64,000 bases of DNA, taken from positions 1-64,000 of the forward strand of contig SVBJ01000006.1 in assembly GCA_015058955.1 (NCBI GenBank). Direction: 5' to 3'. Source of the stretch: Erysipelotrichaceae bacterium (GTDB lineage: Bacteria; Bacillota_I; Bacilli_A; Erysipelotrichales; Erysipelotrichaceae). Positions 9,747-11,227 of this stretch are shown here, piece after piece (position 1 is the stretch's first letter; each line of letters opens with the position of its first letter). The notes under the pieces are model-generated. The model did no database searches. It worked only from the letters and a program-made list of their open reading frames with translations, and was not told the DNA's origin. The translations under genes and the position numbers were made by a program.

Positions 9747-11180
9747 ATGAGAAAGAATTACTGCTTGCTGTGCCATGATGCCAAATGTAACAGAGCGTGT
9801 CATAAACTTGACCCTGCGGATATTCTCAGGAGTCTTTACTTTGACAATGAAGAAGTTGTAAAGAACCGCCTGGGCAGTGATATACCGTGTCTGCATTGCG
9901 ATGCGGAATGCGAGAAAGCCTGTCCGGTCAATGTAAGTATCAGAGACATCATCCTTGATGTTTCAGGATCCGATGCGGCAACAGAGAAAATCGATTACAG
10001 TGTTCTGAAAACGGATTTCTGCGGCATACCGCTGGAAAACCCGTTTCTGCTGTCATCCTCAGTAGTGGCTTCCACATATGACATGTGTGCCAGAGCTTTT
10101 GAAGCCGGCTGGGCCGGTGCAGCTTTCAAGACCATCTGCATGATGGACATCAATGAAGCTTCGCCTCGTTTTTCCGCCATCAAGGGCGATAACCAGAGGA
10201 TCATTGGATTCAAGAACATTGAACAGCTTTCTGATCATACCGTTGTTGAAAACATTGAGATATTCAGAAGACTGAAGAAGGATTATCCGGACAAGTTTCT
10301 GCTGGTATCGATAATGGGCCGCAATGATGAGGAATGGGCTTATCTGGCTGATGTGCTCAATGACAGCGGCGCTGATGCTCTGGAACTTAACTTCTCCTGT
10401 CCCAACATGACAGAAGGGAATACCGGCAGTGATGTCGGACAGATTCCTGAACTTGTTGAACACTACACTGCCATTGTCAGACAGCATACCCGACTGCCGT
10501 TTATCGCCAAGCTGACGCCTAATGTCACTCACATCGAAGAAAGCGCTGATGCTGCGATAAGGGGAGGAGCAGACGGTGTGGCTGCCATCAATACCATCAA
10601 GAGTCTGATCGATGTTGACATCGACCCTACTGACGGCATCTTCCATGCAGCCATCGGCGGATATTCCGGCAAGGCGGTAAAACCTGTCGCCTTAAGATTC
10701 ACTGCCGAACTTGCCAAGGATCATAATCTGGATGGCAAGCACATTTCAGCCATGGGCGGAATTGAAACCTGGAGAGATGCAGCGGAGTTCTTCGTACTGG
10801 GTGCTGATACCGTGCAGATAACCACGGCAGTAATGCAGTACGGTTACAGGATAATCGATGATCTCAAGGACGGCCTGGCTCTTTATCTTATGAAGCATGG
10901 ATTCAAAAACATCAGGGATATTGAGAGATCAACGATTGAAGGCATCGTTCAGGTCGAGGAACTTGACCGCTCGTATAAGATCCTGCCGAAGTTCATCAGA
11001 AAAAAATGCGTGGGATGTCAGAGATGCTTTGTTTCCTGCAATGACGGGGGTCACCAGGCCATTACGATCGTTGAGGGACGACCAGTGCTGAACCCGGAAA
11101 AGTGTGTCGGCTGTCATCTATGCGTGCTGGTATGTCCGCAGCAGGCCATAGTATCTTCAGAAGTACGCGTACCTAAATAA
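9747..11180 (+). CDS. PreA-like dihydroorotate/dihydropyrimidine dehydrogenase with extra N-terminal Fe-S motifs
   Basis: The 477-aa protein is built of three parts. Residues 1-65 carry two cysteine clusters: C6-x2-C9-x4-C14-x3-C18 and C48-x2-C51-x3-C55-x3-C59. The middle (about 85-395) is an FMN-binding TIM barrel with LENPFLLSSS, the catalytic-cysteine segment NFSCPNM and the GADTVQITTAVM end. Residues 410-470 hold a double [4Fe-4S] ferredoxin with CVGCQRC and CVGCHLC. The barrel plus ferredoxin matches PreA of NAD-dependent dihydropyrimidine dehydrogenase. The N-terminal cysteines recall the Fe-S head of mammalian DPYD, but without its flavin/NAD domains. It probably reduces or oxidises a pyrimidine with an external electron partner. 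An AGGAGG-like ribosome site precedes the ATG. Confidence 0.8.
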   Translation: MRKNYCLLCHDAKCNRACHKLDPADILRSLYFDNEEVVKNRLGSDIPCLHCDAECEKACPVNVSIRDIILDVSGSDAATEKIDYSVLKTDFCGIPLENPFLLSSSVVASTYDMCARAFEAGWAGAAFKTICMMDINEASPRFSAIKGDNQRIIGFKNIEQLSDHTVVENIEIFRRLKKDYPDKFLLVSIMGRNDEEWAYLADVLNDSGADALELNFSCPNMTEGNTGSDVGQIPELVEHYTAIVRQHTRLPFIAKLTPNVTHIEESADAAIRGGADGVAAINTIKSLIDVDIDPTDGIFHAAIGGYSGKAVKPVALRFTAELAKDHNLDGKHISAMGGIETWRDAAEFFVLGADTVQITTAVMQYGYRIIDDLKDGLALYLMKHGFKNIRDIERSTIEGIVQVEELDRSYKILPKFIRKKCVGCQRCFVSCNDGGHQAITIVEGRPVLNPEKCVGCHLCVLVCPQQAIVSSEVRVPK

Positions 11181-11203: not shown

Positions 11204-11227
11204 CACAGACTGCGGTCTGTGTTTTTT
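11204..11227 (+). terminator. Terminator of PreA-like gene
   Basis: CACAGAC (11204-11210), loop TGCG, GTCTGTG (11215-11221), then six T. A strong intrinsic terminator. Confidence 0.92.

Follow-up and report, generated by a model that had tools for sequence, protein, structure and literature searches.

Our data indicate that the window, the whole 64,000-nucleotide stretch of Erysipelotrichaceae DNA analyzed here, encodes what is probably a PydAc-type dihydropyrimidine dehydrogenase that depends on ferredoxin, an assignment made by analogy to which we give a probability of about 0.8. A single open reading frame joins an N-terminal Fe-S head, an FMN barrel and a C-terminal double ferredoxin (Fdx1, FMN and Fdx2; Table 1), and Pfam found no FAD or NADPH domain in the 477-residue chain. 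Both features had been proposed from the DNA alone, and they are borne out by the reading frame, the domain search, a comparison of head profiles and the whole-length superposition on dihydropyrimidine dehydrogenase (DPD). The original prediction also held the architecture to be unusual and uncharacterized. On this point it was mistaken, since the same architecture is that of PydAc from Clostridium chromiireducens (UniProt A0A399ILH0), which was purified and assayed (Wang et al. 2020, PMC7332683). The architecture is already known, and the observation, although real, is largely ordinary and defines no new enzyme class.

According to that report, PydAc is one chain with an eight-cysteine N-terminal Fdx domain, an FMN domain and an eight-cysteine C-terminal Fdx domain; it was identified through its PydB neighbor, supports growth on uracil, reduces uracil with reduced ferredoxin or methyl viologen and has a Km for uracil of 0.13 mM (PMC7332683). 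Compared by this published description, PydAc and the window protein share the one-chain Fdx-FMN-Fdx layout, the lack of an FAD/NADPH domain and a strict anaerobe setting, and we infer by analogy that they share electron donor and substrate. Ferredoxin had been guessed as a possible electron source, and the guess appears right given that PydAc, of the same layout, is described as ferredoxin-driven (PMC7332683). We found no support for the accompanying idea of a quinone-like dehydrogenase.

Table 1. Features of the enzyme gene and its flanking signals (positions within the window)
Feature	Position	Strand	Basis
Gene for PydAc-type dihydropyrimidine dehydrogenase, 477 aa, ATG start	9747..11180	+	ORF, Pfam, NCBIfam, fold
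Ribosome-binding-like AGGAGG, ends 7 bases before start codon	9734..9739	+	read in sequence
Head motif 1, residues 6-18, C-x2-C-x4-C-x3-C	9762..9800	+	sequence; conserved in relatives
Head motif 2, residues 48-59, C-x2-C-x3-C-x3-C	9888..9923	+	sequence; weak Fer4_20 match, residues 48-76
FMN barrel (DHO_dh), residues 87-378	10005..10880	+	Pfam
C-terminal double [4Fe-4S] ferredoxin domain, residues 419-468	11001..11150	+	Pfam; conserved cysteines
Terminator-like hairpin CACAGAC-TGCG-GTCTGTG, then six T	11204..11227	+	read in sequence

Domain architecture and predicted fold

The head of the window protein contains two four-cysteine motifs (C6-x2-C9-x4-C14-x3-C18 and C48-x2-C51-x3-C55-x3-C59) and the tail contains two more, giving eight head and eight tail cysteines in all. 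Pfam assigned the barrel to DHO_dh (7e-35, residues 87-378) and the tail to Fer4_21 (1.6e-12, residues 419-468); the head scored 16.8 bits against Fer4_20, 'Dihydropyrimidine dehydrogenase domain II', below the cut-off of 25.8. Residues 87-471 matched the NCBIfam PreA equivalog with 508.2 bits against a cut-off of 335. Assignment to class 1 dihydroorotate dehydrogenase (PyrD) was rejected, as TIGR01037 (183.6 against 270) and NF005574 (193.5 against 269) both fell short.

We compared a head profile of 89 relatives with a profile of 23 PreT heads, comprising 22 heads from headless-PreA loci and that of E. coli PreT. The two matched with 99.3% probability (E 1.7e-20), while the maximum over 30 column shuffles was 1.73%. 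Judged by these profiles, the match exceeds chance and the head of the window protein is homologous to the PreT head.

An AlphaFold model of the protein (pLDDT 84.9, pTM 0.84) superimposed on pig DPD (1gt8) with a Z-score of 41.8 and an rmsd of 5.2 over 464 aligned residues, so that residues 1-477 correspond to 72-1013. The second family in the fold search, dihydroorotate dehydrogenase B, covered the barrel only (Z 35.6, 303 aligned). DPD domains I, IV and V are present in the window protein in the same order, whereas domains II and III, which carry FAD and NADPH, are absent. The DPD head uses a glutamine ligand where the head of the window protein has its eighth cysteine. In the alignment, N157, E159, N215, S217, C218, N282 and T283 are equivalent to pig N609, E611, N668, S670, C671, N736 and T737, which are presumably pyrimidine ligands in pig DPD; C671 mutants are named in the titles of structures matched by the fold search. 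All 89 relatives (80 of them being the best 80 of 130 matches) share all seven residues.

By analogy with these enzymes, reduced ferredoxin would dock at or near the N-terminal head, and electrons would pass from the head through the C-terminal [4Fe-4S] clusters to FMN. Uracil (or thymine) would then be reduced by the flavin at its 5,6 double bond, C218 acting as general acid, to give dihydrouracil.

Relatives and conservation of the head cysteines

After removal of five duplicates from 94 rows, and with the window gene itself (L001, L032) left out, we retained 89 distinct relatives. Since 80 of these are the best 80 of 130 matches to a headed query, the remainder coming from a family sample, the set favors headed proteins. 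The family sample is less biased; it contained a full-length relative in 15 of 145 genomes, and all 15 matches start at query residue 1-5. A phylum sample of 392 genomes gave 27 that passed 1e-60, namely the host genome, two others with headed proteins and 24 with headless ones. Carriers among the best 80 of 130 matches belong to Erysipelotrichaceae, Lachnospiraceae, Selenomonadaceae, Treponema and Prevotellaceae.

We found all eight head cysteines in 64 of the 89 relatives (80 being the best 80 of 130). Another 21 lack C51 and C55, and one lacks C18 in addition to these two. Three rows lack a complete start, L081 because it lies at a contig edge, and L101 and L112 because their reading frames begin internally; L112 likewise lacks C51 and C55, bringing the total without both to 23 of 89. 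All 23 are Bacteroidota, judged by record title (L087-L100, L102-L106 and L108-L112, except L092 and L107) and represent 23 of the 25 Bacteroidota rows among the best 80 of 130; the two that kept both cysteines, L092 and L107, are Bacteroidales from horse feces. Conservation of the head cysteines among orthologues, on which the original prediction leaned, therefore holds for the Bacillota and Spirochaetota rows and fails for these 23 Bacteroidota. The absence of C51 and C55 suggests that the Bacteroidota copies may have one head cluster fewer. Of the 89 relatives (80 being the best 80 of 130), 87 have the full set of eight C-terminal cysteines, and the other two, L084 and L101, are incomplete.

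A midpoint-rooted tree of 99 rows, from which L084, L101, L112 and 14 of the 24 headless loci were left out, placed the window protein inside a 23-row clade composed mainly of Erysipelotrichaceae (support 100/99). Ten PreT-paired PreA rows and E. coli PreA formed their own 11-row clade (100/100) apart from it. The rows with Pyd neighbors (L080-L083 and L085) were deep branches outside the window's clade. Support for deep forks is weak in this tree, and the fork uniting the headed Bacteroidota rows with PreT-paired PreA had support of 86/69.

Pyrimidine metabolism of the carriers

The host genome, that of an Erysipelotrichaceae relative, is 95% complete. The 15 enzyme-holding genomes of the family sample served as the carrier set, and 17 genomes, including two without the enzyme, were searched for PyrB, PyrD and PydB. 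Dihydropyrimidinase PydB (TIGR02033) was over the cut-off in none of the 17 (best in the host, 34.3 bits), and the TIGR01879 type of ureidopropionase PydC, of the hydantoinase family, in none of the 15 carriers (best in the host, 26.8 bits). Since neither model exceeds its cut-off in the host, which differs from C. chromiireducens in this respect, the role of PydAc in that pathway is not transferable to the window protein. E. coli preTA is also described as lying outside a Pyd pathway (PMC7332683).

Across the relatives, four or five of 89 headed proteins (L080, L081, L082, L083 and L085; 80 of the 89 being the best 80 of 130) adjoin dihydropyrimidinase and/or ureidopropionase-like genes. Within the flanks of the same 89 (again, 80 from the best 80 of 130), four contain a dihydropyrimidinase close to that of L085, and five a ureidopropionase-like protein close to that of L082. 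Clustering of neighboring reading frames across 80 loci gave no conserved operon partner, the commonest cluster besides the enzyme being ABC ATPase-like (10 of 80). An M24 peptidase gene lies 5' of the enzyme gene with a gap of 27 bases, and it is no recurrent neighbor across the 80 loci. In its host the enzyme might act as an outlet for reduced ferredoxin or remove uracil analogues, and dihydrouracil would be the end product.

The host genome has no PyrB over the cut-off and no DHO_dh protein besides the window protein. PyrB and PyrD were both over the cut-off in 8 of 15 carriers and neither was found in the other 7, the host included, a gene content that suggests pyrimidine auxotrophy of the host and six related genomes. 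Uracil phosphoribosyltransferase (upp) is present in all 15 carriers (269.5 bits in the host). We considered the window protein as a stand-in for the missing dihydroorotate dehydrogenase and rejected it, because PyrB is missing too and the two genes are either both present (8) or both absent (7) among the 15 carriers.

The same gene content bears on the direction of the reaction. The enzyme could run in reverse, oxidizing dietary or microbial dihydrouracil or dihydrothymine to uracil or thymine that an auxotroph would salvage through uracil phosphoribosyltransferase, and the lack of PyrB over the cut-off and of another DHO_dh in the host, together with its upp, fits such a role. We regard it as improbable, however, because the enzyme is not tied to auxotrophy: it occurs with PyrB and PyrD in 8 of the carriers and with neither in 7, and upp is in every carrier. 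Redox potentials also make ferredoxin a poor acceptor for dihydropyrimidine oxidation, which counts against this direction.

Electron donor

In E. coli PreTA the FAD/NAD(H) domain belongs to a second chain, PreT, whereas the window enzyme is one chain without that domain, its FMN/ferredoxin part being PreA-like (508.2 bits) and its head PreT-like. We searched for the FAD/NAD(P) part of PreT with the E. coli query. It matched 24 of 24 headless PreA loci of the phylum sample, and in all 24 the reading-frame lists place a PreT-like frame directly beside PreA. The same query matched 3 of 89 headed loci (80 being the best 80 of 130), namely L045, L079 and L106, each time 3.8 kb or more away from the gene; the reading frames in L045 and L106 are GltD-like. 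Flank length varies, 85 of the 89 loci having at least 4000 bases, so the comparison is weaker for short loci.

A PreT-like partner had been suggested as something to look for. None adjoins the window gene, whose own locus (L001) gave no PreT-FAD match, and the only other PreT-type head over the cut-off in the host genome lies in an unlinked GltD-like reading frame of 930 aa on another contig. This frame (L031:106-2898, contig C14) has ferredoxin-like motifs, a head of the PreT/GltD type and an FAD/NAD(P) region resembling that of GltD, and its NCBIfam scores all stay below the cut-offs. Such an Fe-S protein could be an unrecognized reductase partner, and NAD(P)H electrons would then reach the window protein through a separate flavoprotein, as in a PreTA system with a displaced partner. 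We consider this very unlikely: although the frame has a Fer4_20 head over the cut-off and a suitable FAD/NAD(P) region, that head would be redundant with the one already in the PreA chain, the frame is on another contig and below every NCBIfam cut-off, and the sampled PreTA loci have PreT next to PreA in 24 of 24 cases.

In favor of ferredoxin-dependent reduction, a [FeFe] hydrogenase domain, which uses ferredoxin, was found in all 15 carrier genomes, with three matches in the host. Against it, a full pyruvate:ferredoxin oxidoreductase is over the cut-off in 13 of 15 carriers but not in the host, where the search gave no full-length match over the cut-off and two weak, short ones of 40.7 and 34.4 bits.

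Purine connections and possible physiological role

A third alternative is that the substrate is a purine-derived ring. UacX, an enzyme that belongs to the reductive uric acid pathway, is described as a PydA homologue that resembles PydAc, with a PydAc-like layout lacking an FAD domain as in the window protein, and it acts on a uric-acid intermediate (PMC12507026). Also in favor of a purine substrate, 11 of 89 relatives (80 being the best 80 of 130), all Prevotella-type, carry a xanthine phosphoribosyltransferase as an in-frame N-terminal fusion to the enzyme (L088, L091, L093, L094, L097, L098, L100, L103, L104, L108 and L109). The fusion at L093:7395-9434 scores 260.7 bits against the TIGR01744 cut-off of 164.45, and there is no methionine near the fusion junction. 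No such domain lies within the flanks of the other 78 loci (of 89, 80 being the best 80 of 130). UacX, however, is described as acting on a purine intermediate from a cluster with XdhD and UacY, whereas the host genome lacks such a context and has no MoCoBD_1 (xanthine dehydrogenase-type) match; 3 of 15 carriers have one. Moreover, all seven pyrimidine-site residues match those of pig DPD, UacX being compared by description, and we therefore hold a purine substrate to be highly doubtful. A literature search by title returned no paper on the xanthine phosphoribosyltransferase fusion; the one paper that contains both names, PMC9603854, has each of them once, and its subject is a Rhodobacter regulator.

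Returning to the ferredoxin-dependent dihydropyrimidine dehydrogenase, the missing Pyd steps, the fusions and the lost head cysteines are leads on its physiological role. We tentatively propose that in most gut and rumen carriers the protein acts as a stand-alone ferredoxin:nucleobase reductase outside the hydrolytic pathway, in which RNA nucleobases serve as a sink for reduced ferredoxin, and that the Prevotella-type form is a bifunctional fusion with xanthine phosphoribosyltransferase whose head has lost one of two clusters; we give this broader picture rather less than even odds. The literature search returned no paper whose title concerns the use of uracil by fermenters as an electron sink.

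Our data add many gut and rumen bacteria to the range of an enzyme type that is known from experiment and has been little studied; in these bacteria most copies lack the dihydropyrimidinase or ureidopropionase-like neighbors of a pathway. PreTA and human DPYD inactivate 5-fluorouracil, so the headed proteins are candidates for the same activity, and searches that require a PreT partner would miss these one-chain proteins.

One headed relative (L133:345-1841) comes from a genome of about 0.6 Mb and contains three in-frame TGA codons, read as Trp under code 4, at positions where Trp appears conserved in relatives. From these codons, its host is probably an organism in which TGA encodes Trp.
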